The notes under the pieces were generated by a model, which had not been told where the DNA came from, did not search any database, and worked only from the letters and a program-made list of their open reading frames with translations. Shown piece by piece: positions 3,409 through 43,627 of a stretch of DNA of 44,035 bases; the stretch's first letter is position 1, and each line of letters begins with the position of its first letter. The position numbers were made by a program, and so were the translations under genes. The stretch is from a virus. The DNA lies in the IMG/VR virus record IMGVR_UViG_3300030098_004159, positions 1-44,035 of that record. One strand, 5' to 3'.

Positions 3409-3457
3409 CCGGTCCCTGACGTATACAGGGGGAGAGAAGGGTGGACTCGACCCCTAT

Positions 3458-3556: not shown

Positions 3557-4195
3557 ATGAGAATATTTTTAGATACAGCAGATGTTGATGCAGTTGCAAG
3601 AAGAGTTGATACTGGATTAATAAGTGGTGTTACCACTAACCCAACCCTCATTAGAAAAAGCGGAAGAAAACCTTCAAATGTTTACTATCAGTTAGATAAC
3701 TTAGACTATATAACAGACGTTAGCATAGAAGTTGTTGCAGATACAGCAGTACAAATGTACGAAGAAGGGATAACTGCAGCAGATAACTACGAAACTGCAA
3801 CCATAAAGTTACCGTGTACTGAAGAAGGGTTAAAAGCGTGTATGATGTTAAATGATCAAAAGGTACGTACGAATGTAACCTTAGTATTTAGTCCAGCTCA
3901 AGCAATATTAGCTAGTTTAGCAGGTGCTAGGTATATATCTCCCTTTGTTGGAAGGTTAAATGATAATTCAGTAGATGGATTGAAGTTAATTAGTGATATA
4001 TCTGCCTTACATATGCCATGTACACAGATATTAGCCGCTTCTATACGTGATGTACCTTCGGTAAGCCAAGCATTCCGATATGGTGCCGATATATGTACTT
4101 TACCTCCGGCAATATTCGATAAAATGTATAAACATGTACTAACTGACCAAGGTTTAGCTCAATTTAACAAAGATTATGCAGACACCAACACTTAA
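3557..4195 (+). CDS. talC: Transaldolase (cyanophage TalC type)
   Basis: Small transaldolase of 212 aa, matching the TalC/fructose-6-phosphate-aldolase-like subfamily rather than long host TalB. It transfers a dihydroxyacetone unit in the pentose phosphate pathway in the host cytoplasm, which supports NADPH and ribose-5-phosphate supply for phage dNTP synthesis. Visible family features: the N-terminal FLDTAD strand, GVTTNPTLI, the Schiff-base lysine Lys84 in ATIKLP, NVTLVFSPAQA, and SPFVGRLND near the C-terminal half. It is an auxiliary metabolic gene of cyanophages and lies at the right end of this genome type. It has no clear Shine-Dalgarno site. The next ORF overlaps its last 20 bases. Confidence 0.96.
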   Translation: MRIFLDTADVDAVARRVDTGLISGVTTNPTLIRKSGRKPSNVYYQLDNLDYITDVSIEVVADTAVQMYEEGITAADNYETATIKLPCTEEGLKACMMLNDQKVRTNVTLVFSPAQAILASLAGARYISPFVGRLNDNSVDGLKLISDISALHMPCTQILAASIRDVPSVSQAFRYGADICTLPPAIFDKMYKHVLTDQGLAQFNKDYADTNT

Positions 4196-4766: not shown

Positions 4767-4795
4767 TTGACATGCTCAACAAATGCTGCTATTAT
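4767..4795 (+). promoter_or_regulatory. Host sigma70-type early promoter P1
   Basis: A perfect -35 TTGACA (4767-4772), a 17-bp spacer and a -10 TATTAT (4790-4795) within an AT run, giving a start near 4802, about 23 bases before the first small early gene. The -35 is overlapped by the inverted repeat GTTGA-CATGC-TCAAC (4766-4780), a possible operator. It is well placed to drive early genes and the RNA polymerase gene with host polymerase. Confidence 0.8.
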
Positions 4796-4824
4796 AATAA
4801 TATAAACAATCAGAGGTAAAACTT

Positions 4825-4953
4825 ATGAGCCATGCAGTAAACGACGAACTATTAGAAACACTATATGAAGAAGTAAAAGAAGAGTTCCCAAAAGCTTTAG
4901 AACCTTTTGTAATTGCTGAAGTCTACAAAAGATTTGAAGATATGAGTATGTAA
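4825..4953 (+). CDS. Small early acidic protein, 42 aa
   Basis: The first ORF after promoter P1. It starts at ATG 4825 after a CAGAGGT ribosome site and ends with TAA at 4953. The 42-aa product is acidic and helical (ELLETLYEEVKEEFP, then EVYKRFEDMSM), with no membrane segment and no family I recognise. Its position directly under a strong host-type promoter suggests an immediate-early, possibly host-takeover, function. The promoter and ribosome site are the main support that it is translated. Confidence 0.6.
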   Translation: MSHAVNDELLETLYEEVKEEFPKALEPFVIAEVYKRFEDMSM

Positions 4954-4970
4954 CAAAATGTAAATAACAC

Positions 4971-4999
4971 TTGACTTATTACTCATTATCATTTATTAT
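4971..4999 (+). promoter_or_regulatory. Host sigma70-type early promoter P2
   Basis: -35 TTGACT (4971-4976), a 17-bp spacer and -10 TATTAT (4994-4999), with a predicted start near 5006, 16 bases before the next small gene. It has the same -10 and the same spacing as P1, 204 bp upstream. Confidence 0.75.
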
Positions 5000-5156: not shown

Positions 5157-5293
5157 TGACTAAAACACAATCAACCAAAGTATTTGATGATGACCCATTC
5201 GGATTTAAAAAAGCTTTGAATGTTAAATCATTAAATAATCTAAATCAAAAACAAATCGAACAAATAGCGAGGATTTTAAAAAATGTCAAATGA
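5156..5293 (+). CDS. Small early protein, 45 aa
   Basis: Starts at the TAATG overlap with the preceding gene and ends at 5293. The N-terminus carries an acidic patch (VFDDDPFGF). The second half is a basic amphipathic helix (NQKQIEQIARILKNVK). It overlaps the next gene by 11 bases. I see no known family. The chained overlaps on both sides make it a plausible member of the early operon. Confidence 0.5.
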   Translation: MTKTQSTKVFDDDPFGFKKALNVKSLNNLNQKQIEQIARILKNVK

Positions 5294-5438
5294 TAAAATG
5301 ATTTATGATGATGCTAGATCTATTGGATTAGACTATGAAACATTTAAGAAATTTGAATCACTATTCAATAATCACAATAACGACGACGAGCCAGAGGTTG
5401 GCGACTTCACAATTAAAGGTAACACATTATGGCTATGA
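5283..5438 (+). CDS. Small early acidic protein, 51 aa
   Basis: ATG 5283 to TGA 5438, overlapping both neighbours by about 10 bases. The product is helical then acidic (NNDDEPEVGDF). It contains one copy of the dispersed TCACAATAAC motif at 5372-5381, read here as His-Asn-Asn. No recognised domain. A GGTAAC-type weak ribosome site for the following gene lies near its end. Confidence 0.5.
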   Translation: MSNDKMIYDDARSIGLDYETFKKFESLFNNHNNDDEPEVGDFTIKGNTLWL

Positions 5439-5623
5439 TTACAAACAAACAAAAAGATGAGCTTGCAATCGCTCGTGAAAATGACGACAGACGCAACTTA
5501 TCATATATTACATTATGTAACGATGATTTGCTATACTTAGTTGATCATTGCTATAATAGAATTGGAGAGGACAGATTAAAGAATATTTGTGATCGTCTCC
5601 TATTATCCGCACTAACTCATTAA
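5429..5623 (+). CDS. Small early hypothetical protein, 64 aa
   Basis: Starts at ATG 5429 with AAAGG about 12 bases upstream, overlapping the preceding gene by 10 bases. It is a soluble helical protein with mixed charge (KQKDELAIARENDDRRN) followed by a Leu/Tyr-rich helix (DDLLYLVDHCYNRIGEDRL). No family recognised. It is part of the early chain of small genes that ends at the RNA polymerase gene. Confidence 0.6.
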   Translation: MAMITNKQKDELAIARENDDRRNLSYITLCNDDLLYLVDHCYNRIGEDRLKNICDRLLLSALTH

Positions 5624-5628
5624 CTATT

Positions 5629-5904
5629 ATGGAATTAAAATCATTCGCCACTAATCGTACATTGTTAACTTTTGACGACGGCACCGAGATTTTCTTTAGT
5701 TATGAAACTCCAGTTGCTGGATACTCAAACAAATTAGGTTATGTTAAAACAAATACATGGTATAGTTCGACAACTACTCGCCACATTAACAGATACTTAA
5801 ACGATGTTTTGATTACTTCAACCGTTAGCGAACTTAAAGTATCTGAGGTTGACCAATCAGTAATCAACAACCTAATCAGAGAATATATACCTAATAGGTA
5901 TTAA
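5629..5904 (+). CDS. DUF8033-like small phage protein
   Basis: A 91-aa protein. It has a beta-strand pattern with FFSYETPVAGY, then a Tyr/Thr stretch (KTNTWYSSTTTRHINRYL). The combination of an F.SY.TPVA strand and the W-S-T-T-RHIN-L motif is typical of a small, widespread phage domain I recall as DUF8033. No biochemical function is known to me. The last third is an amphipathic helix. It follows the upstream gene by 5 bases with no ribosome site. A TCACAATAAC motif (5910-5919) lies just after the stop. Confidence 0.7.
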   Translation: MELKSFATNRTLLTFDDGTEIFFSYETPVAGYSNKLGYVKTNTWYSSTTTRHINRYLNDVLITSTVSELKVSEVDQSVINNLIREYIPNRY

Positions 5905-5942
5905 TACTCTCACAATAACTTTCACTCACTCAATTTATTATT

Positions 5943-6257
5943 ATGTTTAACATGTTTATTTCAGTTCCCAAAAGATCATCAACATTTTTAAATGATGTTA
6001 AAGTTGATCTCGTTAATGGCAAAGCCGTTGCCTACTTTGACGATGGTAACGTTTACGGATACCGCTTTGTATCTAAGAAAGCAATATTAAATATATTGTT
6101 TAATCCTTCAATCAGTCTAGGTTTTTGGTGTAATAGAAATCTATTCAATTCAAACAGAGCCGTTGAAGATTGGAGTGTAATCCCTAAAGAGAATAAAACA
6201 ATGCGCAATGGCTACCGCAAAACACACGCCGACGTTAACTTACCACACTTTATCTAA
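5943..6257 (+). CDS. KTSC-like domain small early protein
   Basis: A 104-aa protein. Residues about 18-70 have the pattern V-DL-NGKAVAYFDDGNVYGYRFVSKKAI, then NPSISLGFWCNRN. This resembles the KTSC domain of phage and bacterial proteins: a strand carrying a short acidic turn, an aromatic strand, and a helix ending in G-F-N. The remainder is basic. It overlaps the next gene as TAATG (6257). Function unknown; KTSC domains have been linked to RNA or nucleotide processing only by association. Confidence 0.65.
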   Translation: MFNMFISVPKRSSTFLNDVKVDLVNGKAVAYFDDGNVYGYRFVSKKAILNILFNPSISLGFWCNRNLFNSNRAVEDWSVIPKENKTMRNGYRKTHADVNLPHFI

Positions 6258-6541
6258 TGAACACTTATCAAATGTATTTAGGTTTAACACGTCCAGATAA
6301 TGAAACCATTACTACTGAACAGTTCAACGCCTATACTAAAGAAGTCCTTGATACATTATTCGACGGTTACACCATATCGGACGCCGTCGGTAATTGGAAA
6401 GGAGAACGGGAACAAACTAAGATAGTTTCCATATGTACCGAGTATAAGAACTTAGTCAACAAAGCGGCTGAATTATACAAGGTTTATTTTGAACAAGACG
6501 CTGTAGCAATTAATATATTGCCAGCTCTGGAGATGGTGTAA
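6257..6541 (+). CDS. DUF3574-like small early protein
   Basis: A 94-aa protein starting in TAATG. Its pattern YLGLTRPDNETITTEQF, then FDGYTISDAVGNWKGEREQT, then IVSICTEY and a helix leading to YKVYFEQDAVAIN resembles the DUF3574/antibiotic-monooxygenase-like alpha-beta fold. This fold occurs in many phages as a stand-alone small protein. No catalytic residues can be named. It is the last gene before the repeat-rich intergenic block at 6542-6757. Confidence 0.6.
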   Translation: MNTYQMYLGLTRPDNETITTEQFNAYTKEVLDTLFDGYTISDAVGNWKGEREQTKIVSICTEYKNLVNKAAELYKVYFEQDAVAINILPALEMV

Positions 6542-6559
6542 CTTCTACACCTCTCCTTT

Positions 6560-6573
6560 GTATCATTTGATAC
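6560..6573. repeat. Dyad GTATCATTTGATAC, copy 2
   Basis: Identical to the 14-mer at 4482-4495 and again placed about 20 bases after a gene stop. Here it precedes the tandem TCACAATAAC repeats. Exact repetition of a palindrome at two intergenic sites suggests a binding site or a structured RNA element. Confidence 0.7.
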
Positions 6574-6576
6574 TAT

Positions 6577-6622
6577 TCACAATAACTCACAATAACTTAT
6601 TCACAATAAGTTTCACAATAAC
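6577..6622 (+). repeat. Tandem TCACAATAAC repeats
   Basis: Three exact copies (6577-6586, 6587-6596, 6613-6622) and one with a single change (6601-6610, ending AAG) lie within 46 bases. The first two are directly adjacent with a 10-bp period, about one helical turn. This is the densest cluster of a motif that recurs across 5.3-17.1 kb. Confidence 0.85.
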
Positions 6623-6625
6623 TAC

Positions 6626-6718
6626 AAGGACGCAAGGACGCAACCACACTACTACAAGGACGCATGAGCAGCCACCTACTCTTTCGCATATACCGAGCAG
6701 CACGACTGCAAGGACGCA
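6626..6718 (+). repeat. AAGGACGCA repeats
   Basis: Four exact copies at 6626-6634, 6634-6642, 6656-6664 and 6710-6718, directly after the TCACAATAAC cluster. A variant, AGGGACGCA, follows the TCACAATAAC pair at 7686-7707, just before a gene start at 7724. The AAGGA core could act as a ribosome site where an ATG follows (6664), but the other copies have none. Confidence 0.75.
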
Positions 6719-6765
6719 AACAAACACCATTACGCAAACGGAGGTTAAGTATTCTCAATGAATAA
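6664..6765 (+). CDS. Possible basic micropeptide, 33 aa
   Basis: ATG 6664 has AAGGA 4-8 bases upstream and opens a 33-codon frame rich in Arg/Lys (context RAARLQGRKQ, then LRKRRLSILNE). It ends 8 bases inside the next gene. It runs through the repeat region, so its composition may simply reflect the repeats. Low confidence; listed because of the ribosome-like site and overlap with the following start. Confidence 0.25.
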   Translation: MSSHLLFRIYRAARLQGRKQTPLRKRRLSILNE

Positions 6766-6946
6766 CTTTTCAGAGACTTATTATCCTACAATACAAGGAT
6801 ACAGGTTAACACCTGAAGAGCATAAAGCTAATAACCAATGGTTTGCTTCAATGCTTGACAAGCTCACGGACGATGGTGTATTATATATACCAGTACTTCA
6901 TAAATCTTTTAACAAACAAGGAGATGAGATCAATGGCTTACTATGA
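6758..6946 (+). CDS. Small early hypothetical protein, 62 aa
   Basis: ATG 6758 is preceded by CGGAGG about 13 bases upstream. The product is soluble and mixed alpha-beta (NNFSETYYPTIQGYRLTPEEH, then DDGVLYIPVLHKSFNKQGDE). I recognise no family. It overlaps the next gene by 14 bases. The AAGGAG in its last codons serves as that gene's ribosome site. Confidence 0.6.
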   Translation: MNNFSETYYPTIQGYRLTPEEHKANNQWFASMLDKLTDDGVLYIPVLHKSFNKQGDEINGLL

Positions 6947-7136
6947 CATTCAGATAACCAGAGAAAAGTATATGTACACAGTACAAGCTGACTCTGAAGA
7001 ACAAGCCGAAGAGTATGCATTAAGCCGAGCTAATTGGGATTATGGTAATACACATTCTCATATTACTGAGGTTAGTCAATCTGAGGTTGACAGTCGACAT
7101 GCAGCAAAACATTGGCAAAACGTAAACACCCATTAA
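6933..7136 (+). CDS. Small early hypothetical protein, 67 aa
   Basis: I chose ATG 6933 (MAYYDIQITREKYMY) because AAGGAG lies about 9 bases upstream; an earlier in-frame ATG at 6924 is less well placed. The pattern YDIQITREKYMYTVQADSEEQAEEYALSRA is a strand followed by an acidic helix. It resembles small DpnD/PcfM-like or 'bacterial sensor' alpha-beta folds seen in phages, but this is a loose resemblance. It is soluble and acidic. Function unknown. Confidence 0.6.
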   Translation: MAYYDIQITREKYMYTVQADSEEQAEEYALSRANWDYGNTHSHITEVSQSEVDSRHAAKHWQNVNTH

Positions 7137-7141
7137 TTACC

Positions 7142-7348
7142 ATGACTACCACTAAACCACTCTACCTACTCATCAAACTAGACGTTGATGGAGAAATAGT
7201 CTTTGACTACAAGGACGCTGAAAACTATGCAAAAAACTTCTGTAATAACATGGAGTTTGAGCTAATTGACCATTGCTTAGAAGAAGAGGAGAACAATGAT
7301 CTTTACATTGGTTGTGACTCTGAAATTAAGGAGGAGGTATGGCCATGA
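7142..7348 (+). CDS. Small early acidic protein, 68 aa
   Basis: The first ATG in the frame is 7142. The frame extends upstream only through a TTG. The product begins with a strand (PLYLLIKLDVDGEIVFDY), continues as a helix (DAENYAKNFCNNMEFELIDHC) and ends in a very acidic tail (LEEEENND). No recognised domain; the fold outline resembles the preceding gene product. A GGAGGAGG ribosome site for the next gene lies in its last codons. Confidence 0.6.
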   Translation: MTTTKPLYLLIKLDVDGEIVFDYKDAENYAKNFCNNMEFELIDHCLEEEENNDLYIGCDSEIKEEVWP

Positions 7349-7422
7349 TCGTTTACTTTTTATTAGTCTTTGGTCTTTTATATATTGCATACATTCTACG
7401 TGTCTATGACCCACATAATTAA
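7339..7422 (+). CDS. Single-span membrane micropeptide, 27 aa
   Basis: ATG 7339 (or 7345, two codons later) follows a very strong GGAGGAGG site. The peptide is almost entirely one hydrophobic span (VYFLLVFGLLYIAYIL) with a short tail RVYDPHN, consistent with a single-pass inner-membrane peptide. It overlaps the genes on both sides in other frames. It is too short for family recognition. The ribosome site and clean membrane profile make translation plausible; a role in altering the host membrane is conjecture. Confidence 0.5.
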   Translation: MAMIVYFLLVFGLLYIAYILRVYDPHN

Positions 7423-7663
7423 GGTATGGAAGTATGCACTTGGCTCATTTTCAGATGAGAAAACTAAGGAAGTTGACAATCAAGTTGTTTTTGTTCGATC
7501 TCTTATCTTTTTATCTTATCTTATCACTAATTGTTTTATTATTAGTGGAGTAATTCGACATTGGAACTATGGCAACAACACCAAACTGGCAGCACCACAG
7601 CAAGAAGCTGCCCAAATACAAAAAGAAACCACAAATTATACGAGCTGCAAAGAAGCGAACTAA
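7406..7663 (+). CDS. Small membrane protein of a cyanophage-conserved type
   Basis: Start at ATG 7406 (85 aa); the upstream part of the frame has only a TTG and overlaps the micropeptide. The N-terminal part WKYALGSFSDEKTKEVDN, followed by a hydrophobic segment (LIFLSYLITNCFIISGVI) and a terminal His-Trp, matches a small membrane protein recurrent in marine cyanophages. The part after about residue 55 is low-complexity and overlaps another ORF (7569-7694), so the C-terminus may be less constrained. Function unknown; one membrane span. Confidence 0.65.
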   Translation: MTHIIKVWKYALGSFSDEKTKEVDNQVVFVRSLIFLSYLITNCFIISGVIRHWNYGNNTKLAAPQQEAAQIQKETTNYTSCKEAN

Positions 7664-7694
7664 GCAATTTCTAGCTCGTATTTTTTCACAATAA
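7569..7694 (+). CDS. Basic small protein, 41 aa
   Basis: ATG 7569 to TAA 7694, overlapping the C-terminal region of the membrane protein in another frame. The product is highly basic (HHSKKLPKYKKKPQIIRAAKKRTK), suggesting nucleic-acid binding. There is no clear ribosome site. Its stop codon lies within a TCACAATAAC motif. It may be a real small gene or the shadow of a poorly constrained tail; I cannot decide from sequence alone. Confidence 0.35.
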   Translation: MATTPNWQHHSKKLPKYKKKPQIIRAAKKRTKQFLARIFSQ

Positions 7695-7707
7695 CTATCA
7701 CAATAAC
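7686..7707 (+). repeat. TCACAATAAC pair
   Basis: Two exact copies at 7686-7695 and 7698-7707, 12 bp apart, immediately followed by AAGGAGG and a GGGACGCA element upstream of ATG 7724. The arrangement repeats that of the 6577-6718 block: the motif first, then AAGGA-type elements. Confidence 0.85.
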
Positions 7708-7723
7708 AAGGAGGCAGGGACGC

Positions 7724-7903
7724 ATGGAGACTCAGCGACTTCTAGATCCACACAAAGTTAAATATTATGTTACACTAAGAAGTGGTAGAGACTTCATTAT
7801 GAATAGTTCTCTAGACCCTGAAGAGGCGGCGTGGGACGCTCACGACGAGGCGTGTCTTATGGACGACTATGTAAACAACATTACACCTATTTGCGATGTC
7901 TAA
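7724..7903 (+). CDS. Small early acidic protein, 59 aa
   Basis: ATG 7724 to TAA 7903, with AAGGAGG about 11 bases upstream. The product has a basic N-terminal strand (HKVKYYVTLRSGRDFIM) and an acidic C-terminal helix (DPEEAAWDAHDEACLMDDYV) ending in CDV. The outline of strand plus acidic helix is shared with the two genes at 6933 and 7142. No family recognised. It overlaps the next start by 8 bases. Confidence 0.6.
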   Translation: METQRLLDPHKVKYYVTLRSGRDFIMNSSLDPEEAAWDAHDEACLMDDYVNNITPICDV

Positions 7904-8198
7904 ACGAAAGTATTACCCGAACAAATGGAAACAAGTTAAAGCTGTACCTGCAGAATACTTTGAGTCTATTGACTTTGAAGATCTTATGGATTGGAAGCTT
8001 GGAGGTTATGAACTACCAGAGGGTGTAGTATGTGTCTTACGAGAACGTAACCTTAAAACAAATAAGGTAAGTGAATATACTTACATGCAAATGTCAGCGG
8101 CTAAACGTCGTACAAATAAAATCATAAAGCAAGGAGATAGTGAGCTTACAATATGTACTCATCAACAAGTTGCACACATTGATTCCACCAATTTATAG
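7896..8198 (+). CDS. Early hypothetical protein, 100 aa
   Basis: ATG 7896 overlaps the preceding stop by 8 bases. The protein is basic at its N-terminus (SKRKYYPNKWKQVK), then has an acidic segment (YFESIDFEDLMDWKLGGYELPEG), a beta-like CVLRERNLKTNKVSEYTYMQ and a basic KRRTNKIIK. It is soluble, with no family I can name. It is part of the early chain leading to the RNA polymerase gene. Confidence 0.65.
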   Translation: MSKRKYYPNKWKQVKAVPAEYFESIDFEDLMDWKLGGYELPEGVVCVLRERNLKTNKVSEYTYMQMSAAKRRTNKIIKQGDSELTICTHQQVAHIDSTNL

Positions 8199-8205
8199 GA
8201 GAACC

Positions 8206-8373
8206 ATGAAAGAATCATTCAAGGACGTATATACATATGCTAGTCAAGCACTAGATATGATAGAACGTGAGAAGGATATTAATCCTAACTACAAGGAACT
8301 AAAGAAATTATTAACCGATCAAGTAAACGAAGAACTACATGATGTCACCTACTCCAGAGTCTCTAGTAAATGA
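8206..8373 (+). CDS. Small early helical protein, 55 aa
   Basis: I place the start at ATG 8206 because AGGAGA lies 5 bases upstream; the frame opens earlier but only as a shadow of the previous gene. The product is charged and helical (YASQALDMIEREKD, YKELKKLLTDQVNEELHD). It overlaps the RNA polymerase gene by 35 bases. No family recognised. Confidence 0.6.
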   Translation: MKESFKDVYTYASQALDMIEREKDINPNYKELKKLLTDQVNEELHDVTYSRVSSK

Positions 8374-10687
8374 ACAAGTTGAATTAGAGAGATCACAGAT
8401 AAGTCAAGGTCTCAAGCGTCTCAACGATAATACATTTAAACTTGAAGATAAAAGCTATGCTTCAGCTTCAGTTTATGGTATTGCATCTATTGATACTCTA
8501 CTACCTTTATTAGTAAAAAGAATTAACCAAACTACTAATAGAATTAAAGAAGGTAAAACAGGTGTAGCATTTAAGGAGATACACAAGTATCTAGCTGACT
8601 TAGAACCATTAGCCGCTGCAGCTATAGCATGTAAGATTACATTCGATAAAGTGTTTAGCTTTAAGGAAGGTAGTAATTTTGCTGTTAATGTATGTGACTC
8701 TATTGGTCATGCTATTGAAGATGAGTGTCAAATGAGACACTATGAAGACAAGGTGCCAGCTCTTTTAACTACATTAAAGAAAAACTATTGGCATAAGTCT
8801 ATTGGAACACAGCAAAAGCTAGTAGTGATCAAGACTTTGATGAATCGTTATAATGTATCTGCATGGACGCCATGGGGTAGATCAATTCGTGTGAAACTAG
8901 GAGGTTGGTTGCTTGACTGTATCATGGAGTCAAGTGGTTGGTTTTCTCAGGAGAAGATAAGAGAAGGACATAAAACTGTTACATATGTGTTACCAACTGC
9001 TGAGTTTTTGGATATCAAGGACGAAGTTATGGCAACTGCTGAACTGTTCTCACCATTAGCTTGGCCGATGCTAGTGATACCAAGGGATTGGAGTAATGAA
9101 GAACAAGGAGGTTACATTCTTAATGAAGTAATGTGTGGTCACGATTTAGTTAGAAGAGGCGATCCCTTACGTATACAGGGAGAAACACCACTAGACTTTC
9201 TAAATAAAATACAGAAGGTCGGATATAAACTAAATCCCTTTATAGTAATTACTGCTGAGTTCTTACAAGAAAAAGAAATTAGTGTTGGGAAATTCCTCCC
9301 TATCATTCATTATGATCTACCACCTAAACCTTTTGATATAGCTGAGAACAAGGAGTCTCGGAAGAACTATAGAAGAAAGACTGCTGAGGTATTAAATAGA
9401 CAAGCTCAGGAGACAAGAAGATCGTGTCGTACTCGTATGACAATGGAAGCTGTAGCTAAGTTTAAGGATAGAGATAGATTCTATATACCTTGGTCTTTTG
9501 ATTACAGAGGTAGAGCATATCCTATACCTGCATTCCTTACACCGCAAGATACTGACTTTGGAAAAAGTTTAATTAAGTTTGCGGATGAAGCTGAAGTTAC
9601 ACCTGAGTCTTATAAGTGGTTAGCTTTTCAAGTAGCTACTGCTTATGGTCTAGATAAACATACATGGAATGAGAGACAGCAATGGGTAAAGGATAACATA
9701 TTCACAATAACTCGAGTCGCCGAAGATCCTGTAGATAACTTAGGAGATTGGGAAGGAGCTGAAGAACCTTGGCAGTTCTTAGCAGCTTGCGAAGAGTATT
9801 ACCATTGCGTTATAAAGAAGGATAGACTAACTACTGGTCTATGTGTAGCTACAGATGCTACATGTAGTGGTCTTCAGATTCTAGCAGGTTTAGCTAGGGA
9901 CAAGTCGACAGCACAACTCGTCAATGTGTTGCCTTCTGATAGACCACAAGACGCTTATGCTGTAATAGCTAAGAAATCTAAACCTAATATACCTGAGGTC
10001 TTACACCCTGTCTGGGACAGGAAATGTTGTAAACGCACAGTTATGACAATACCTTACAATGCTAAGGCGTTTAGTAACAGAGCATACATCAGGGAGGCAC
10101 TCAAAGAAAAAGGTATAGAGGTTGATAAAGATGACCTTACAATAACTGTCAGAGCTGTCAGGGACGCAATGTCTAGGGTAGTTCCGGGTCCGATGTCTGT
10201 TATGAAATGGATTGAAGACGAGGTATCTAAAGCTATTAAACGAGGATCTACAGAATTAGAATGGATAACACCATCTGGATTTGTAGTAGTTCAACGTTTA
10301 ATGAAAAAGAAGATGGAGACTATAGAGTTAAAACTCTTAGGTCGTTGTCAATTAAGAGTAGCTACAGGAGATAAGGACGAAGTAGATAGGAATAGGCATA
10401 AAGCAGCAACTGCACCTAACCTTATCCATAGTCTAGATGCTTCACTACTACACCTAAGTGTTAAACGATTTAATGAACCCATCGCATTAATACATGACTC
10501 AGTACTATGTAGAGCTACTGATATGTCTTTACTGTCTACTATAGTCAGGGAAACATATATGCATCTATTTGCTGAACATGATTACCTAACAACCTTCGCC
10601 CAACAAATTGAGGCGGAGACTGAACCACCGATCATAGGAGATCTTGAACCGAGATCCGTGATTGATTCCACTTATTTTTTCTGTTAA
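8339..10687 (+). CDS. T7-type single-subunit RNA polymerase (gp1)
   Basis: Transcribes the middle and late phage genes (782 aa; T7 gp1 is 883, so the N-terminal domain is shortened). Motif A is DATCSGLQILAGLARD with catalytic Asp506. Motif B has Lys565 and Tyr573 in KRTVMTIPYNAKAF, the same 8-residue spacing as T7 Lys631/Tyr639. Motif C is ALIHDSV with catalytic Asp720. An upstream RFYIPWSFDYRGRAYPIP block is also typical. Two ATGs (8339, 8342) could serve as start; the gene overlaps its neighbour by 35 bases. It lies at the end of the host-promoter-driven early block, as in T7. Its promoter sequence is not established here; the TCACAATAAC motif is one candidate. Confidence 0.97.
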   Translation: MMSPTPESLVNEQVELERSQISQGLKRLNDNTFKLEDKSYASASVYGIASIDTLLPLLVKRINQTTNRIKEGKTGVAFKEIHKYLADLEPLAAAAIACKITFDKVFSFKEGSNFAVNVCDSIGHAIEDECQMRHYEDKVPALLTTLKKNYWHKSIGTQQKLVVIKTLMNRYNVSAWTPWGRSIRVKLGGWLLDCIMESSGWFSQEKIREGHKTVTYVLPTAEFLDIKDEVMATAELFSPLAWPMLVIPRDWSNEEQGGYILNEVMCGHDLVRRGDPLRIQGETPLDFLNKIQKVGYKLNPFIVITAEFLQEKEISVGKFLPIIHYDLPPKPFDIAENKESRKNYRRKTAEVLNRQAQETRRSCRTRMTMEAVAKFKDRDRFYIPWSFDYRGRAYPIPAFLTPQDTDFGKSLIKFADEAEVTPESYKWLAFQVATAYGLDKHTWNERQQWVKDNIFTITRVAEDPVDNLGDWEGAEEPWQFLAACEEYYHCVIKKDRLTTGLCVATDATCSGLQILAGLARDKSTAQLVNVLPSDRPQDAYAVIAKKSKPNIPEVLHPVWDRKCCKRTVMTIPYNAKAFSNRAYIREALKEKGIEVDKDDLTITVRAVRDAMSRVVPGPMSVMKWIEDEVSKAIKRGSTELEWITPSGFVVVQRLMKKKMETIELKLLGRCQLRVATGDKDEVDRNRHKAATAPNLIHSLDASLLHLSVKRFNEPIALIHDSVLCRATDMSLLSTIVRETYMHLFAEHDYLTTFAQQIEAETEPPIIGDLEPRSVIDSTYFFC

Positions 10688-10897
10688 ATGTACACACTAT
10701 TTGATAGTTTCTTTGCACCTCCTACTATTGTAGTGGTGTCTGAAGAAAGGCTAAAAGCTGCTGAATTGAAAGCTAAAGAGAAACAACTTTTAGAAGTTAA
10801 AGTACGCATAGAACAATTACAAGAGTTCTATGATAAACTTGATAACGAAGTTAAATCTCTTAAACCTGCTAACGAGGAGGTAGAATCTAATGGCTAG
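10688..10897 (+). CDS. Small coiled-coil protein, 69 aa
   Basis: Starts immediately after the RNA polymerase stop. Residues 18-60 form a continuous charged helix (EERLKAAELKAKEKQLLEVK..., then LQEFYDKLDNEVKSL) with a heptad-like Leu pattern, so a coiled coil. It carries an AGGAGG site at 10876-10881 for the next gene and overlaps it by 8 bases. No known function; its position between polymerase and gp2.5 suggests a small accessory factor. Confidence 0.65.
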   Translation: MYTLFDSFFAPPTIVVVSEERLKAAELKAKEKQLLEVKVRIEQLQEFYDKLDNEVKSLKPANEEVESNG

Positions 10898-11471
10898 AAC
10901 TATCCACAAAACTGAAAAACCCGTAACACTTGAGGGATTCCAAGCAATACTAGCACCTAGTAAATTTGGTTATTCACTCTCGGCTGTAGTTGATAACGAT
11001 GTTATCGACAAATTAGAAAATGAGCGAGCTGAAGTCCTTAAATGGGCAGAGTCTAAGCTCAAAAATCCGAAACGCTCTACGCTCAAACCTGAGCCATGGG
11101 AAGAGGTTTCAAAGGATAAGTATAAATTAAAATTCTCTTGGAATGAAGAGACTCGTCCTCCAGTAGTCGACACGGAGGGAACTCAACTTACTGATGTTAA
11201 AATACCTTTATATGCAGGATCTACTGTTAAACTGGGTTTCTATCAAAAACCATATATTCTTAGGGATGGGGTTACCTATGGTAGCTCTCTTAAGTTGGTT
11301 GGTGTACAAGTTATCTCAGTAAAAGGTGAGGCTGGAGTAGATACAGGAGACTTAGACGCTAATGAAGTTGCCGAGCTATTTGGTAAGTCTTCAGGATACA
11401 AGGCGGCTGACCCTAATGTAGTTCCAGATACCACACCTAGTTCCGTTGAAGATGACGAAGACGATTTCTAA
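10890..11471 (+). CDS. Single-stranded DNA-binding protein (T7 gp2.5-like)
   Basis: A 193-aa protein in the gp2.5 position before gp3 and gp4. It has the length, the lack of a bacterial SSB signature and the acidic, aromatic-terminated C-terminal tail (EDDEDDF) that T7 gp2.5 uses to contact polymerase and helicase. The core contains strand-rich segments such as YKLKFSWNEETRPPVVD and VKLGFYQKPYILRDG, consistent with an OB fold. It has a good AGGAGG ribosome site. The gp3 start lies within its last 20 bases. Confidence 0.88.
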   Translation: MARTIHKTEKPVTLEGFQAILAPSKFGYSLSAVVDNDVIDKLENERAEVLKWAESKLKNPKRSTLKPEPWEEVSKDKYKLKFSWNEETRPPVVDTEGTQLTDVKIPLYAGSTVKLGFYQKPYILRDGVTYGSSLKLVGVQVISVKGEAGVDTGDLDANEVAELFGKSSGYKAADPNVVPDTTPSSVEDDEDDF

Positions 11472-11820
11472 ATTTAAATCCAAGTTAGAAGAGAGAATAG
11501 CTACTCTCTTCGTAACGCTTGGAGTTAAGTACGAATATGAGTCTGAGAAAATATCTTATACAATTCAGCACTATTATTGCCCAGACTTTGTGCTTCCTAA
11601 TCATGTATATTTGGAAGCTAAAGGTTATTGGGCACCGGCTGATAGGCGTAAGATTTTAGCCGTGAAGAAGGATAATCCAGACATGGACTTACGTATGGTA
11701 TTCCAAGCACCTTACAATAAAATAAATAAAAATAGTAAGACTACCTATGCAATGTGGTGTGAAAAACATAACATTCCATGGACAGCTTACCATGACATAC
11801 CTATTGATTGGTTAACATGA
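11452..11820 (+). CDS. Endonuclease I, Holliday junction resolvase (T7 gp3-like)
   Basis: Resolves branched DNA and helps degrade host DNA. I use ATG 11452 (122 aa); a longer frame begins only with TTG. The catalytic set is visible: Glu13 in KLEERI, Asp45 in YCPDFVL, Glu55 and Lys57 in YLEAKGYW. The Asp-to-Glu spacing of 10 and Glu-x-Lys match T7 Asp55, Glu65 and Lys67. The gene overlaps gp2.5 upstream and the primase-helicase downstream (ATGA). High confidence from motif and position. Confidence 0.94.
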   Translation: MTKTISKFKSKLEERIATLFVTLGVKYEYESEKISYTIQHYYCPDFVLPNHVYLEAKGYWAPADRRKILAVKKDNPDMDLRMVFQAPYNKINKNSKTTYAMWCEKHNIPWTAYHDIPIDWLT

Positions 11821-13397
11821 CCGAGAACGAGTTCGTAAGACATATAGCTTGCGACAACTGTGGTTCATCAGATGCAAATTCCTTGTATTCTGATGGACAC
11901 ACTTACTGCTTCGTCTGTCATAATGTCACGGACGGAGATAAACCTATTCACAATAACAGAATGAAAGGAGCTGTATACCTTACAGGATCAGCCGAAAGGC
12001 TAAAAAAACGTAATATTTCTGAAAAAACTAACAAATTTTATCAAATACACATTGATGGTAATGAATTGAAGTTCCCTTACCATGATGAATCAGGAGTATT
12101 AAAAGGTATAAAAACCAAAACAAAGAAAAAAGATTTTCGTTATGAAGGAGTTTCCACTAATACCTTATTCGGTCAGCATCGCTTCCCTACTACTGGTAAA
12201 CGTATTGTTGTTACTGAAGGTGAACTAGACGCCGCCTCATGTTATGAAGCCATGCCTTCGTGGCCGATGGTATCACTACCTCATGGAGCTGCGGCAGCTA
12301 AAAAGGACATTCAAAAACAGATACCGTTATTCCAAGGTTATGAGGAAATTGTCTTATTCTTTGATAATGATGAAGCAGGTATTAAAGCAGCATCTGAAGC
12401 TGCATCCGTATTACCTCCCGGAAAAACAAAGATAGCTCGTTTGGAAGCATACAAGGATCCTTCAGAAGCATTGCAAGCCAACGACTCTGACGCAATTAGA
12501 AAAGCTATCTGGGATGCTAAACCTTACCGACCAGATGGTATTGTTGAAGGTAAATCATTATTAGAATTAATTACTACACCCACACCACCTGCAGATCACG
12601 AATATCCATTTCAAGGACTTAATGATATGCTGCATGGCATTAGGTACCAAGAATTAGTCACAATAACAAGTGGCTCAGGTATAGGTAAATCAAGTTTCTG
12701 CCGTCAAATTGCAGCAAAACTCTTAGATAATGGAGATAAAGTAGGCTACTTAGCTTTAGAGGAATCTAACAGACGAAGTGCTTTAGGACTAATGTCATGT
12801 GCATTAGGAAAATCTTTACACATAGGAGATCATGAACAAACAGAATTGGCAGACGCTTTTCGCTCTACTATGGAACATTGGAATTTATTCCTGTTTGATG
12901 GTTTTGGTTCGTATGATCCTGACACAATTTACTCTAGGATCGAATACCTTGCCTGTGGATTGGAATGTCGTATTGTATTCCTAGACCACTTGAGTATCTT
13001 ATTGTCTGGTTTAGATGGGGATGAGCGTCGTATGTTGGATCAAACTATGACTAAGTTAAGGTCATTAGTTGAACGTACTGGCATTACATTATTCCTAGTA
13101 TCACATTTACGGAGGAGTAACAATGATAGGACTTCGCACGAAGAGGGAGGAAAAGTATCCCTCAGCCAACTTAGAGGATCTCATAGCATTGCTCAACTCA
13201 GCGATAGCGTCATCGCTTTGGAGCGAGACCAACAGAGCGAAAATGATAGAGACGTTACCACGCTTAGAATTATTAAAAACCGTTATTCAGGAGAGACTGG
13301 ATTCGCAGGTAAAATAAAGTACAATTTATCTACATCGAGGTTTACTGAACATGAAACTACGCAAACACCAATTTTCGACCCAAGCACAGACTTCTGA
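11817..13397 (+). CDS. Primase-helicase (T7 gp4-like)
   Basis: Bifunctional replication enzyme, 526 aa (T7 gp4A is 566). I use ATG 11817, overlapping the gp3 stop as ATGA; a TTG 9 bases upstream is less likely. An N-terminal zinc ribbon has Cys12, Cys15, Cys31 and Cys34. The TOPRIM primase core shows Glu134 in VVTEGELDAA and Asp183/Asp185 in LFFDNDEAG. The RecA-type helicase has Walker A SGSGIGKSS (285-293) and Walker B ending in Asp390 (RIVFLDH). It contains two copies of the TCACAATAAC motif (11948, 12658) in different reading frames. Confidence 0.96.
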   Translation: MTENEFVRHIACDNCGSSDANSLYSDGHTYCFVCHNVTDGDKPIHNNRMKGAVYLTGSAERLKKRNISEKTNKFYQIHIDGNELKFPYHDESGVLKGIKTKTKKKDFRYEGVSTNTLFGQHRFPTTGKRIVVTEGELDAASCYEAMPSWPMVSLPHGAAAAKKDIQKQIPLFQGYEEIVLFFDNDEAGIKAASEAASVLPPGKTKIARLEAYKDPSEALQANDSDAIRKAIWDAKPYRPDGIVEGKSLLELITTPTPPADHEYPFQGLNDMLHGIRYQELVTITSGSGIGKSSFCRQIAAKLLDNGDKVGYLALEESNRRSALGLMSCALGKSLHIGDHEQTELADAFRSTMEHWNLFLFDGFGSYDPDTIYSRIEYLACGLECRIVFLDHLSILLSGLDGDERRMLDQTMTKLRSLVERTGITLFLVSHLRRSNNDRTSHEEGGKVSLSQLRGSHSIAQLSDSVIALERDQQSENDRDVTTLRIIKNRYSGETGFAGKIKYNLSTSRFTEHETTQTPIFDPSTDF

Positions 13398-13426
13398 GTT
13401 GAAAAAACCTAACCCACCTACTAAAG

Positions 13427-13990
13427 ATGCAATCCACCGAGCCAAATTTAGAGACAAAACCTTCAACTGGGACAACAGTAATAATAGACCTAGAGACAAA
13501 CGGTCTACTTAAGAATACAAGTACAATTCATTGTCTTGTTATTCATGACCTTGAAACAGGACTTACTGAACGTTTTAATGATACAGGTTCTGAAGAATCA
13601 ATAATTAGAGGTGCTCAGTATATTGAGATAGCTGATAGAATTATTGGACATAATATTATAGGATTTGATTTACCTATAATAAAAAAAATGTATTCATGGT
13701 TTGACCCTAAAGGTGAAATTATAGATACACTTGTTTTATCTCGATTATATCATCCAAATTTAATGGAGATAGACAAAAGAAGAAATTGGAAACATATGCC
13801 GTTACAATTATATGGTAGACATTCACTCGAAGCATATGGTTACCGATTAGGAGAATACAAAGGAAACTTTGGTAAAGAAACTGATTGGTCTACATGGAGC
13901 CAAGAGATGGAAGACTACTGCGTACAAGACGTTGCTGTTACTAAAAAACTATGCAATCATTTCCACCGTTACCTGAATGGGTCAAATTAG
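13427..13990 (+). CDS. DNA polymerase, 3'-5' exonuclease part (split gp5)
   Basis: A 187-aa protein holding only the proofreading domain of an A-family polymerase. Exo I is IDLETNG (Asp21, Glu23), Exo II is GHNIIGFD (Asp81) and Exo III is YCVQD (Tyr164, Asp168). It ends with TAG at 13990, 40 bases after the start of the polymerase part, which lies in another frame. T7 gp5 is one 704-aa chain, so the two products here (187 + 422 aa) together make a compact equivalent. Either they associate as subunits or a frameshift joins them. Confidence 0.88.
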   Translation: MQSTEPNLETKPSTGTTVIIDLETNGLLKNTSTIHCLVIHDLETGLTERFNDTGSEESIIRGAQYIEIADRIIGHNIIGFDLPIIKKMYSWFDPKGEIIDTLVLSRLYHPNLMEIDKRRNWKHMPLQLYGRHSLEAYGYRLGEYKGNFGKETDWSTWSQEMEDYCVQDVAVTKKLCNHFHRYLNGSN

Positions 13991-15219
13991 AACACAAGGT
14001 AGCACAAATACTTACACAACAGGAGATACATGGATGGTACTTTGATGAGGATGCTGCACGGAAACTTGAATCTGCTCTCAGAACTGAGTATGAGGCGATT
14101 ACTAAGGTACTTCTCGACAGGTATCCTTACGTTGCAGGAAAGGAATTTACTCCTAAACGAAATAATAGCCGCCAAGGGTATATCGAAGGTTGTACATTTA
14201 CTAGATTAAAAGAATTTAACCCGTCATCAAGGGATCATATCGCATGGATCTTACAAACACATTGTGGTTGGACGCCCGTATCAATGACCTCCACAGGAAA
14301 ACCAGTAATAGACGAAACAATTCTCAAAGAGATTGGGACGGATACTGCTCTGAAGTTCTTGACACTACTGGATCTTACGAAGCAGTTAGGAATGATATCC
14401 GAAGGCGTGAACGCATGGCAGAAGCTTGTTACGAAGTCTAGGATACATCATTACTGTGCTACTACCACAGCTACATTTCGATGTGCTCATCGTACACCTA
14501 ACCTTGGACAAGTTCCAGCTGATGAACGATTTAGAAGATTGTTCAGAGCTACACCCGGTCAACGCATGGTCGCAGCTGACTTATCGGGTATAGAATTACG
14601 CATGCTCGCTCATTATCTTGCTAGATATGACGGAGGTCGATATGCAACCATTCTTACAACAGGCGACATTCACCAAACTAATGCTGACAAAATTGGAATT
14701 ACCCGTAGACAAGTCAAAACCGTTACTTATGCATTCTTATATGGATGTGGAGATATTAAATTGGGACATAGTTATGATCAATTATTATCCGAAGATGAAG
14801 CTAGGAAAAAAGGCAAAGAGATTAGGAAAGCTTATGTTGATGCCATTCCGGGTCTTGCAGAGCTGTTACAAGCTTGTAAGATACGTAGCCAAAGAAATTT
14901 CGCAAACGCCATCGACGGTCGTCGTATCAGCGTGGACAAAGGGCATAAGTTTCTCAACTACCTCTTACAGGGAGGAGCAGCGGTTATCGCCAAAAGATGG
15001 ATGGTCAGATCCCATGAACGAATATTACAAGGAGATGTAGACTGTCACCAACTTGCTTTTATCCATGATGAATTACAATTTGAATGTAATCCTAAACACG
15101 TAGAAGATCTCAAGTCCATATTAGAATTATCTGCTGTTGAAGCAGGTGAACATTATAATATGAGGATTCCTATAGCTGCTGAAGCCAAGGATGGAGAGAC
15201 TTGGGCAGACACCCATTAA
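13951..15219 (+). CDS. DNA polymerase, polymerase part (split gp5)
   Basis: A 422-aa A-family polymerase domain without an exonuclease. Motif A has Asp210 in VAADLSGIELR. Motif B has Arg252, Lys256 and Tyr260 in the O helix (RRQVKTVTYAFLYG), with the T7 spacing and with Tyr at the dNTP-selecting position. Motif C is IHDE (Asp373, Glu374). ATG 13951 overlaps the exonuclease gene by 40 bases in the -1 frame and has no ribosome site. The N-terminus (LEHKVAQILTQQEIHGWYFD) is the usual bridge between exo and pol domains, so nothing obvious is lost. No thioredoxin-binding loop can be judged. Confidence 0.93.
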   Translation: MQSFPPLPEWVKLEHKVAQILTQQEIHGWYFDEDAARKLESALRTEYEAITKVLLDRYPYVAGKEFTPKRNNSRQGYIEGCTFTRLKEFNPSSRDHIAWILQTHCGWTPVSMTSTGKPVIDETILKEIGTDTALKFLTLLDLTKQLGMISEGVNAWQKLVTKSRIHHYCATTTATFRCAHRTPNLGQVPADERFRRLFRATPGQRMVAADLSGIELRMLAHYLARYDGGRYATILTTGDIHQTNADKIGITRRQVKTVTYAFLYGCGDIKLGHSYDQLLSEDEARKKGKEIRKAYVDAIPGLAELLQACKIRSQRNFANAIDGRRISVDKGHKFLNYLLQGGAAVIAKRWMVRSHERILQGDVDCHQLAFIHDELQFECNPKHVEDLKSILELSAVEAGEHYNMRIPIAAEAKDGETWADTH

Positions 15220-15222
15220 TTT

Positions 15223-16008
15223 ATGAAAATTTTAATAGACGCAGACTATATTGTATATAAGTCTTGTGCTGCAGCAGAAAGTGAAGTAGACTTTGGTGAT
15301 GATGTTATTCTCGTTACAAGTAATTTCAATGATGCTTACAATGCTGCAAAACGTGAGATAGCGAAGATTGAAAAGAAACTTGGTGATTTCTCAAATACTA
15401 TATTGTTCTTTTCTGACAGTACAAATTTCAGGAAAAAAATTCTACCAGAATATAAAGGACATCGAAATCGTAAAAAACCATGTGGATACAAACGTATCAT
15501 CAATGCTCTTGGAAAAGAGTACAAGGTCATCAAAAAGCCTTCGTTAGAGGGTGATGATGCACTTGGTATTTATGCCACAAAATTTCCGGGTAATATAATT
15601 GTTTCACCAGACAAGGACATGAAACAGATTCCCGGTCAGCTGTATAACTTTGACGATGTTTTCACAATAACACCTGAAGAAGGTGCTAAATGGCACTTGC
15701 TTCAAACAATGGCAGGTGATAACACCGATGGATATGCTGGAGTACCTACAATCGGCGTAAAAAGAGCCGAAAAAATCTTTGAGGAAAAAGGTTACACTTG
15801 GAAAGCCGTAGTGGAAACCTTTGAAGAAAAAGGTATGACAGAAGAAGATGCTCTAGTTAATGCTAGGCTTGCAAAAATATTAACTGCTGATGATTATGAC
15901 TTCAAAAGAAAAGAACCTAAACTTTGGTCCCCCTCCTCCAATTACAAAGTTAACGACGGAACAGGATCTAAAAATGAGACTGATAGCCGACAAACTAAAG
16001 AGGGATAA
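15223..16008 (+). CDS. 5'-3' exonuclease (T7 gp6-like)
   Basis: A 261-aa FEN-family nuclease (T7 gp6 is 300 aa) that removes RNA primers and degrades host DNA. Metal-binding acidic motifs are visible in order: ILIDADYI at the N-terminus (Asp6, Asp8), a basic clamp SDSTNFRKKILPEYKGHR, EGDDALGIYA, SPDKDMKQIPG, and the helix-hairpin-helix region AGDNTDGYAGVPTIGVKRA. It starts 3 bases after the polymerase stop. One TCACAATAAC copy lies at 15662-15671. Confidence 0.95.
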   Translation: MKILIDADYIVYKSCAAAESEVDFGDDVILVTSNFNDAYNAAKREIAKIEKKLGDFSNTILFFSDSTNFRKKILPEYKGHRNRKKPCGYKRIINALGKEYKVIKKPSLEGDDALGIYATKFPGNIIVSPDKDMKQIPGQLYNFDDVFTITPEEGAKWHLLQTMAGDNTDGYAGVPTIGVKRAEKIFEEKGYTWKAVVETFEEKGMTEEDALVNARLAKILTADDYDFKRKEPKLWSPSSNYKVNDGTGSKNETDSRQTKEG

Positions 16009-16141
16009 CGTTAAAAAAGAAGATATAATTACTGTATATTTAGCATTGCAAAAACAAAACTTTGTATTAAGTAATTCTTTAATGAATTTAATTGATAATT
16101 GGCCGCAGGAGCCAGTTACCACTTTTGGTATTTTAATTTAA
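15974..16141 (+). CDS. Small hypothetical protein before ribonucleotide reductase, 55 aa
   Basis: The frame opens at 15890, but ATG 15974 with AGGAT upstream limits the overlap with the exonuclease gene to 35 bases, and I prefer it. The product is helical: a basic segment ADKLKRDNVKKEDI, then VYLALQKQNFVLSNSLMNLIDNWP. The LALQ-x-F-N-L-WP pattern is one I associate with small phage proteins of unknown function. Its stop overlaps the reductase start (TAATG). Confidence 0.6.
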   Translation: MRLIADKLKRDNVKKEDIITVYLALQKQNFVLSNSLMNLIDNWPQEPVTTFGILI

Positions 16142-17505
16142 TGACAACAGAACTTATCTCCCGTACTGGTCGGGTCCAGTCTTGGCTGGATAACCCAGAA
16201 TCACGCCTACCAGTTTCATGTACTGTATTCGTAGTCGAGGACTCAATGGAAGGTCCCGACGGAATTGAAGCCAGCTGGAGGTTTGTCTCTCATGCTCTCC
16301 GATACGGAGCAGGAGTAGCAGTCCACTTATCAAAAATTAGACCTAGAGGACATGAAAATGGCAGAGGTTTAGTTGCTAGTGGACCAGTATCATTTGCAAA
16401 AATTTATTCTAGTTTAAATGAAACATTACGTAGAGGCGGTCACTTCAAAAACGGTGCTGTGGTTGCCCATCTTGATATTGATCACCCCGATATTATTGAG
16501 TTCGTGCAAACGCCCAGAGAAGAACTCCCATGGATTAAGCGATGTGTTAACGTCGATAGAGAAAAATGGTTTAGAGCAAACATTAGAACAAGAGAAGCAA
16601 TATTACAAGGAATTGCCAAAGGAGATATTTGGCTCAACAAAATAAAATACGATGGAAAATCTAAACGAATTCGTGGAAACGTCTGCCTCGAGGTTTACCT
16701 GCCCTCACGAGGAACTTGCCTCTTACAACATGTCAATCTCGGTGGGTGCAAGATCGAAGACCTCCCGAAAGCTTTCGCTGTGGGTATGTCTGAATTGTGT
16801 GAACTCCATAGCAAAACAGGCGTCGGAAATACAGGCGAGTATTTACCTTCCGAAACGGACCGCCAAGTCGGACTTGGATGCCTTGGATTAGCTAACTTTT
16901 TAGCAAATAATAATGTAACATATGCAGACTTTGCTAACGCATTAGAAAGTAAAGAATGTAGTGAAACGGCATTATATATAGTTGATGAATTGCAAGCAGC
17001 TATAGAAGGAGCAGCAGTCATAGCTCGTCACAATAACATGGCTCGAGCTTTTGCTATTGCTCCTACAGCATCTTGTTCTTATAAAAGTAGAGATGTAAAA
17101 GGATATACTTGTACTCCTGAAATAGCACCACCCATTGCTAAAAGTGTAGACCGTGACTCTGGCACTTTTGGTGTAGAAAAAGTTGAATACGGCAATGTCG
17201 AAATTGCCTCGGAAGTTGGTTGGGACGTTTACAAACGTGTCACTAATGGTATCGTAAAATTATTCGACGCTACGGGACTTCTTCACGGATACAGCTTTAA
17301 CTCATGGAGTGATGTTGTAACCTACGACAATGCGTTCGTTGAAGAGTGGTTGCTTTCTCCTCAGACCTCCCTTTACTATTCTTTACAAGTAATGGGTGAT
17401 ACTCAGGATAAGACTAACGCTTACGCTGCTCTTGATCAGGACGAAGTTGATGATTACTTGAAAGAAATTTTAGATAATCCAATTAACTGCGACTGCCAAG
17501 AATAA
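16141..17505 (+). CDS. nrdA: Ribonucleotide reductase, catalytic alpha subunit (class I, NrdA-like)
   Basis: Reduces ribonucleotides to deoxyribonucleotides for phage DNA. ATG 16141 gives 454 aa; the frame runs further back only to a TTG. The active site shows Cys27 (first redox Cys), Asn180-x-Cys182-x-Glu184 (NVCLE, the thiyl radical loop), Cys193 (partner redox Cys), a Tyr-Tyr pair in SLYYSLQ for radical transfer and the C-terminal CDC (450-452) that is re-reduced by thioredoxin/glutaredoxin. The N-terminal ATP-cone is absent, and the chain is much shorter than cellular NrdA (about 760 aa). The Tyr pair and the adjacent beta gene point to class I, not the class II label these cyanophage genes once carried. 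Confidence 0.9.
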   Translation: MTTELISRTGRVQSWLDNPESRLPVSCTVFVVEDSMEGPDGIEASWRFVSHALRYGAGVAVHLSKIRPRGHENGRGLVASGPVSFAKIYSSLNETLRRGGHFKNGAVVAHLDIDHPDIIEFVQTPREELPWIKRCVNVDREKWFRANIRTREAILQGIAKGDIWLNKIKYDGKSKRIRGNVCLEVYLPSRGTCLLQHVNLGGCKIEDLPKAFAVGMSELCELHSKTGVGNTGEYLPSETDRQVGLGCLGLANFLANNNVTYADFANALESKECSETALYIVDELQAAIEGAAVIARHNNMARAFAIAPTASCSYKSRDVKGYTCTPEIAPPIAKSVDRDSGTFGVEKVEYGNVEIASEVGWDVYKRVTNGIVKLFDATGLLHGYSFNSWSDVVTYDNAFVEEWLLSPQTSLYYSLQVMGDTQDKTNAYAALDQDEVDDYLKEILDNPINCDCQE

Positions 17506-42443: not shown

Positions 42444-42586
42444 TGGCATTTAAATTAGAAGGCAAGACTCTTCCGGTCGATGTGCCATTTCAAACATCAG
42501 ATGGAACAAACTATCCGGCTAACTGGCTTAGACTAACTACGTTGGATGAAAAGAAAGCCATTGGAATTACGGAGGAAACTGATTAA
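42443..42586 (+). CDS. Small tail-fibre-associated protein, 47 aa
   Basis: Lies between two TAATG overlaps (42443 and 42586). The pattern LPVDVPFQTSDGTNYPANWLRL, then LDEKKAIGITEE is one I recognise from the C-terminal or stand-alone small domain in cyanophage tail regions (an N-W-L-R-x-x...A-I-G-I-T signature). Likely a tail fibre accessory or assembly component. Clear coding signal despite its length. Confidence 0.65.
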   Translation: MAFKLEGKTLPVDVPFQTSDGTNYPANWLRLTTLDEKKAIGITEETD

Positions 42587-43035
42587 TGGCATTAACACAA
42601 ATAAAAGCAGCGGCTTTAACTGCGGATCTAATAGATGAAACAAAATTAGCCGACAATTCTATAGACTCAGAACATTATAATGATGGATCTATAGATACAG
42701 CTCACATAGCTGATGACCAAGTTACTCTTGCTAAAATGGCAGGATTAGCTAGAGGTAAAATTATTTATGGTGATTCCTCTGGTAATCCAGCAGCTCTTAC
42801 TGTAGGTAGTAATGGACAAACTATAGTATCTGATGGTACTGATCTTTCATGGGGTGATGCAGCAGCCGGAGCAACCGGCGGGTCGACTGATAAAATTTTC
42901 TGGGAGAATGGACAAACGGTAACGACAAATTACACGATTAGTAATAACAAGAACGCCATGTCTGCCGGACCTATAACTATAAATAATGGTATCGCCGTAA
43001 CAATCGGTACCGGTGAAAACTGGACAATCGTATAA
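42586..43035 (+). CDS. Tail fibre-like protein, 149 aa
   Basis: The N-terminal half contains shaft-type repeats (ETKLADNSIDSEHYNDGSIDT, then HIADDQVTLAKMA) like those of the main fibre. The middle has GKIIYGDSSGNPAAL, similar to GQVIVGNSSTVPTAV in the fibre at 37183-39669. The C-terminal 50 residues are a beta-rich cap (TTNYTISNNKNAMSAGPITI). It is a short fibre or fibre segment that could assemble on the tail. Confidence 0.75.
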   Translation: MALTQIKAAALTADLIDETKLADNSIDSEHYNDGSIDTAHIADDQVTLAKMAGLARGKIIYGDSSGNPAALTVGSNGQTIVSDGTDLSWGDAAAGATGGSTDKIFWENGQTVTTNYTISNNKNAMSAGPITINNGIAVTIGTGENWTIV

Positions 43036-43038
43036 ATT

Positions 43039-43626: not shown

Positions 43627-43627
43627 T

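Follow-up and report, generated by a model that had tools for sequence, protein, structure and literature searches.

That phage genomes can be nicked at specific sites has been known for some 50 years, and no function for this is agreed upon (PMC11780129). In Pseudomonas phage tf, 14 nicks have been mapped to TACT/RTGMC on one strand, 12 of them within the early/replication unit, and relatives of tf have TACTATGAC at similar positions, which was interpreted as co-evolution with the nickase (PMC3517423). In phage Rembedalsseter, 13 nicks mapped by nanopore lie at WACTRTGAC, and the word is present in 60 relatives; in this group it often lies where a coding sequence starts, in most cases on the coding strand (PMC11780129). 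Other dsDNA phages with repeated nick sites on one strand are T5 and the phiKMV-like phages (CGACxxxxxCCTA/CTCCGG).

The word TCACAATAAC, found in a T7-like cyanopodovirus, resembles the tf and Rembedalsseter sites in several respects. It is a non-palindromic word of 9–10 nt with about a dozen copies on one strand, concentrated in the early and replication genes, both in coding and intergenic DNA and with copies at gene starts, and its allele varies between relatives while the positions stay similar. However, the cyanophage word itself is different, exists in at least seven alleles and forms tandem clusters. It is also unrelated to the consensus of phiKMV, a distant relative among the T7-like phages, where the nicks are on the non-coding strand.

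The window is a stretch of 44,035 nucleotides, and among named phages the nearest relative found is Cyanophage NATL1A-7. The main features are listed in Table 1. Beyond the primase/helicase the gene order is split DNA polymerase, 5'-3' exonuclease, ribonucleotide reductase and structural genes. The DNA polymerase (13427–15219) is divided between an exonuclease ORF and a polymerase ORF that overlap, which matches the annotation of P-SSP7 and S-TIP37; phage tf likewise has a separate DnaQ-type exonuclease. Ahead of the early genes (region 4767–4999) there are strong sigma-70-like promoters, TTGACA-17-TATTAT at 4767 and TTGACT-17-TATTAT at 4971; scans of the window for sigma-70 promoters and terminators gave counts close to the shuffled expectation.

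Table 1. Genes, copies of the word and predicted RNA polymerase (RNAP) promoters in the window.
Feature	Position	Strand	Context
Terminase large subunit (terL)	1675-3408		
Predicted RNAP promoter	3414-3435		after terL; octamer followed by TATACAGGGAGA-type core
Transaldolase	3557-4195		followed by small early genes
Word copy	5372..5381	+	small early ORF 5283-5438, frame HNN
Word copy	5910..5919	+	intergenic, upstream of ORF 5943-6257
Tandem cluster	6577..6622	+	intergenic; exact copies at 6577, 6587 and 6613, near copy TCACAATAAG at 6601
Tandem pair	7686..7707	+	intergenic; copies at 7686 and 7698, spacing 12 bp
RNAP	8339-10687		followed by SSB
Predicted RNAP promoter	9164-9183		inside RNAP gene; octamer followed by TATACAGGGAGA-type core
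Word copy	9702..9711	+	RNAP gene, codon 455, frame TIT
Endonuclease I (T7 gp3 family)	11446-11820		
Primase/helicase	11808-13397		
Word copy	11948..11957	+	primase/helicase gene, codons 47-50, frame HNN; best conserved site
Word copy	12658..12667	+	primase/helicase gene, codon 284, frame TIT; class A only
Word copy	15662..15671	+	5'-3' exonuclease gene, codon 147, frame TIT
Word copy	17028..17037	+	ribonucleotide reductase gene, frame HNN; last copy, right before the structural genes

All 12 exact copies in the window are on the plus strand, between 5372 and 17037, and none is on the minus strand, while dinucleotide shuffles give an expectation of 0.16. This agrees with an earlier note on this DNA, which had expected far fewer than one copy by chance and had seen none on the other strand. 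Eleven of its 12 coordinates are correct; the copy placed at 9712 actually starts at 9702, and the near match at 6601 is real. When one mismatch is tolerated there are 15 matches versus 5.0 expected, i.e. the enrichment is restricted to the exact word. The copies are also localized, as all ten independent sites fall within a zone of 11.7 kb (p ~2e-6 under a uniform model). The 27 kb of late DNA contains no exact copy, in line with the proposed restriction to early and middle genes, and its sole near match (TCACATTAAC at 35795) is compatible with chance. As the note had also described, copies occur both between and within genes and in different frames: seven of the 13 sites, counting the near copy, are intergenic and six are in ORFs, where they are read as HNN or TIT.

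Relatives were gathered by their RNAP (80 IMG/VR loci) and joined by ten isolate genomes, in total about 90 loci, although many of the contigs are short and cover the RNAP region only. The exact word is frequent on the plus strand in the nearest clade and absent elsewhere. However, a de novo 9-mer scan for clade-specific, strand-biased words shows that other clades have words of their own, alike in general form: TCACAATCG(A), TTCACAGTCA, TCACAATCAC, CACACTCATCA, CACCATCA(C/T) and CACATTCA. There are at least seven clade alleles, TCACAATRAC, TCACAATCG, TCACAGTCA, TCACAATCA, CACACTCAT, CACCATCA and CACATTCA, nearly always on one strand.

Classes were assigned by the counts of a few patterns. As the loci share ancestry, counts over them are not independent. 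On the plus and minus strands of loci from the matching class, the words of classes A–E are found 127/1, 45/0, 105/0, 53/0 and 25/0 times, and the sixth word 30/4 times. The number for class C refers to the strict word TCACAGTCA, since the loose pattern TCACAGTC also catches a run of HSL codons at RNAP 697 that is conserved as protein. Most words are nearly absent from loci assigned to other classes; there the loose class C pattern is found 14/2 times, and the word of class F with about the same frequency on either strand. The relatives thus bear out the one-strand rule, and they agree with the early and middle restriction as well, except Syn5: all other complete genomes examined have no copies beyond 3.5–18.8 kb (rotated), whereas in Syn5, where CACCATCA occurs 21/0 times, 14 of the 21 copies are in the early/replication zone, and seven are outside. 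Three of the Syn5 copies are inside the RNAP gene.

Mapping the sites onto the protein alignments of the relatives reveals that position and spelling are separable. At primase codons 47–50, 62 of 77 loci have the phage's own allele, with all seven classes represented. At exonuclease codon 147, 15 of 27 loci have an allele of class A, B, C or D, and the orthologous position at RNAP 454–455 is occupied by class A, B, C, D or E alleles. Another fixed position is RNAP 600–602. The earlier note had made its reading depend on conservation of the sites in relatives, and positions are indeed kept while the sequence switches. Different phages read the same class C or D word of the primase site in two frames, as IHSQ or NSQS, and as VHNH or NSQSP; both IHSQ and NSQS are encoded by TCACAGTCAA at one orthologous site. 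This bears out the proposal that selection is on DNA or RNA and not on protein. As the sites within a genome switch together, a trans-acting, co-evolving reader is implied. Syn5 and S-TIP37 both grow on host strain WH8109 and have different primase sites, a difference that speaks for a reader encoded by the phage; the weak point of this comparison is that S-TIP37 has few copies of the word.

The reader was searched for by covariation with the allele in RNAP, SSB, endonuclease I, primase, ORF 7896, the exonuclease part of the polymerase, the polymerase itself and the exonuclease. The top columns are often the codons that encode the motif itself (primase 42–57, exonuclease 147–148, RNAP 455). 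The sole endonuclease that tf and these phages were found to share is endonuclease I, and its residues do not covary clearly with the allele among the relatives. Residue 56 of ORF 7896 tracks motif position 7 (nMI 0.63; no formal significance is attached to this or the other nMI value given here). However, the product of ORF 7896 was rejected as the reader since the gene is missing in Syn5 and 9515-10a. ORF 7896–8198 codes for a conserved protein (phrog_9569), found just upstream of RNAP in most relatives. An HNH endonuclease beside the terminase was also rejected as the nickase, as it is present in just 15 labelled loci, all from classes D–G. Neither an HNH gene nor a terminase small subunit was recognised at 42443–44035 and 1–1678 of the window; several relatives have them beside terL, so the contig may be incomplete at that place. 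Among the gene trees, RNAP is the most congruent with allele class, requiring 18 changes versus 21–23 for SSB, ORF 7896 and endonuclease I, and 15 versus 20 for primase on 49 shared rows, but RNAP is the longest gene and its length may explain this advantage.

From the likeness to tf and Rembedalsseter we infer, tentatively, that the word may be the recognition site of a phage-encoded, sequence-specific and strand-specific factor. This factor would act on DNA and would most likely be a nicking endonuclease, making localized single-strand interruptions in one strand of the early/replication third of the genome; the nicks could be used in packaging, DNA entry or recombination. A candidate nickase is our preferred reading, held at somewhat less than even confidence because the placement of copies in leaders and in tandem would also fit an RNA-level signal or a cooperative binding site. 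As a control, the k-mer statistic ranks TACTGTGAC (11/0) as the top word of tf and so retrieves its known nick-site word. In addition to the separate DnaQ-type exonuclease, tf and the cyanophages share the polymerase, primase-helicase, 5'-3' exonuclease and endonuclease I. The word CACAATGAC of some class A relatives matches TACTATGAC at seven of nine letters on the same strand; however, TATTGTGA and TACTGTGA are about as similar in the opposite orientation, so this resemblance is weak. The tf-group consensus WACTRTGMC is not enriched in the window (3 matches versus 2.8 expected) and the phiKMV nick consensus is absent from it. Three further points count against a nickase. Tandem copies at the observed spacing are unexpected for such an enzyme and would be better explained by a protein that binds DNA or RNA, the word is rare or missing in S-TIP37 and S-SBP1, and T7, which has endonuclease I, is not known to have site-specific nicks.

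Alternatively, the word could act in mRNA, as UCACAAUAAC, where a phage-encoded protein would bind it or a phage-encoded endoribonuclease would cut it on early and middle transcripts. We consider this possible, if doubtful. Every copy is in the sense strand of early or middle genes; however, strand bias cannot separate RNA from DNA as all genes are on one strand. The intergenic copies are located in 5' leaders, after the T-tract of the upstream gene and before the next ribosome site, often in tandem. For example, the pair at 7686 is flanked by the T-tract of a terminator-like hairpin (~7638–7685) and the AAGGAGG ribosome site of ORF 7724–7903, and the cluster at 6577 is immediately upstream of ribosome-site-like CAAGGACGC repeats. 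The role would be similar to that of RegB/RegA of T4, whose sites are short, restricted to early transcripts and located at ribosome-binding regions. In the cyanophages, however, many conserved copies are instead located well inside genes and away from start codons, and ATG is enriched near the word at the primase site only. A translational operator at start codons was rejected on the same ground. No candidate RNA-binding protein or RNase was found. Base-pairing with a phage small RNA was rejected too, as the exact reverse complement of TCACAATAAC does not occur on the plus strand of the window.

Two side observations concern the same regions. In most relatives an ATG follows a few bases after the primase motif (codons 47–53), and it could be an internal start of a short helicase form like T7 gp4B. 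Another repeat, CAAGGACG, is found ahead of start codons and resembles an extended ribosome-binding element; it occurs 8/0 times in the window (6625, 6633, 6655, 6709, 7210, 8220, 9016 and 19297) and 9/0 times in P-GSP1.

It is unlikely, though worth weighing, that the word is primarily the site of a phage-encoded double-strand DNA-binding protein, i.e. a replication initiator, repressor or DNA organizer, cooperative on tandem copies and with the single copies being secondary. The intergenic clusters have tandem copies 11–12 bp apart, about one helical turn, and their places upstream of RNAP are conserved in classes A, B and C. All three classes keep a pair ~590–660 bp upstream of RNAP, and several relatives have tandem clusters in the matching intergenic neighbourhood ~1.6–2.2 kb upstream. 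In P-GSP1 the only clear copies are in a tandem intergenic cluster. However, a count of close pairs overstates the evidence, as many of them are inherited, and the best conserved sites are single genic copies in the primase and exonuclease. Further, no DNA-binding protein was found that tracks the allele.

The earlier note had also named a replication or primase site and a promoter core for the phage RNAP as possible roles. The word is strand-specific and overlaps the replication genes, which would suit primase recognition or lagging-strand start sites, but such a role is very improbable, as T7-type primase sites are only three bases long, the 27 kb of late DNA is replicated as well without containing the word, and the strand is unchanged on either side of RNAP.

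The phage RNAP promoter appears to be a separate element. The Syn5 RNAP promoter is known experimentally to be ATTGGGCACCCGTAA (PMC3950665), and we find exactly two copies of it in Syn5, directly after terL and inside the RNAP gene. Long-repeat searches identify a repeat pair at the corresponding two places in other phages, for example AACCCCTACGTATACAGGGG in P-SSP7 and CCACCGTATACAGGGA in NATL1A-7. In the predicted copies of the window, the octamer is CCCTGACG or CCCTTACG and the part after it TATACAGGGGGAGA or TATACAGGGAGA. The general form in 88 loci, an octamer of variable sequence with TATACAGGG after it, has about two copies per genome. Counting back from TATACA in these loci, the fifth base covaries with the residue that aligns to T7 Arg756 (nMI 0.72), the next octamer base with 754, and further ones with 748 and the AT-rich loop 96–98, while the second-nearest octamer base covaries with the intercalating-hairpin residues 233, 239 and 240 (T7 RNAP numbering). 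All these regions are promoter contacts in T7 RNAP. For P-SSP7, AAAATTCTTCAAGTTTACAA has been predicted as a promoter in a study where 18 of 26 predicted pairs were inactive (PMC11475235); it overlaps a repeat, AAAATTCTTCAAGT, that we find only in the tail-fibre region.

The word is similar to TCACTATA in the T7 promoter and points the same way as the genes, and its classes fit the RNAP tree slightly better than the other trees on nearly the same rows, but a promoter role is hardly tenable: the octamer elements occupy the two promoter places of Syn5 and covary with the contact residues, TCACAATAAC does not covary with the RNAP specificity loop (whose residues differ among class A members and are partly shared between classes), and the Syn5 word TCACCATCAC is unlike the known Syn5 promoter. 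As a by-product, we obtain a predicted cyanophage RNAP promoter, backed by covariation with promoter-contact residues and directly testable.

It can be speculated, although we regard it as a rather doubtful possibility, that marine T7-like cyanophages have a diversifying allelic nucleic-acid code within the early and replication genes, where a phage-encoded reader of a novel type, for RNA or DNA, switches by clade together with its dozen or so scattered targets. No earlier description of such an element in cyanopodoviruses was found in the literature searched. If the code exists, each clade would have a factor unable to read the genomes or transcripts of other clades, and the code could serve self-versus-rival discrimination in co-infection. 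Among photosynthetic cells, the hosts of cyanopodoviruses are the most abundant on Earth. The series of alleles amounts to a natural experiment, and for several alleles there are cultured phages (NATL1A-7, P-SSP7, Syn5, S-RIP1 and 9515-10a). Deletion of genes has been published for S-TIP37 and Syn5 (PMC8776855). For site-specific nicking, the co-varying alleles would offer a direct route to the nicking enzyme.
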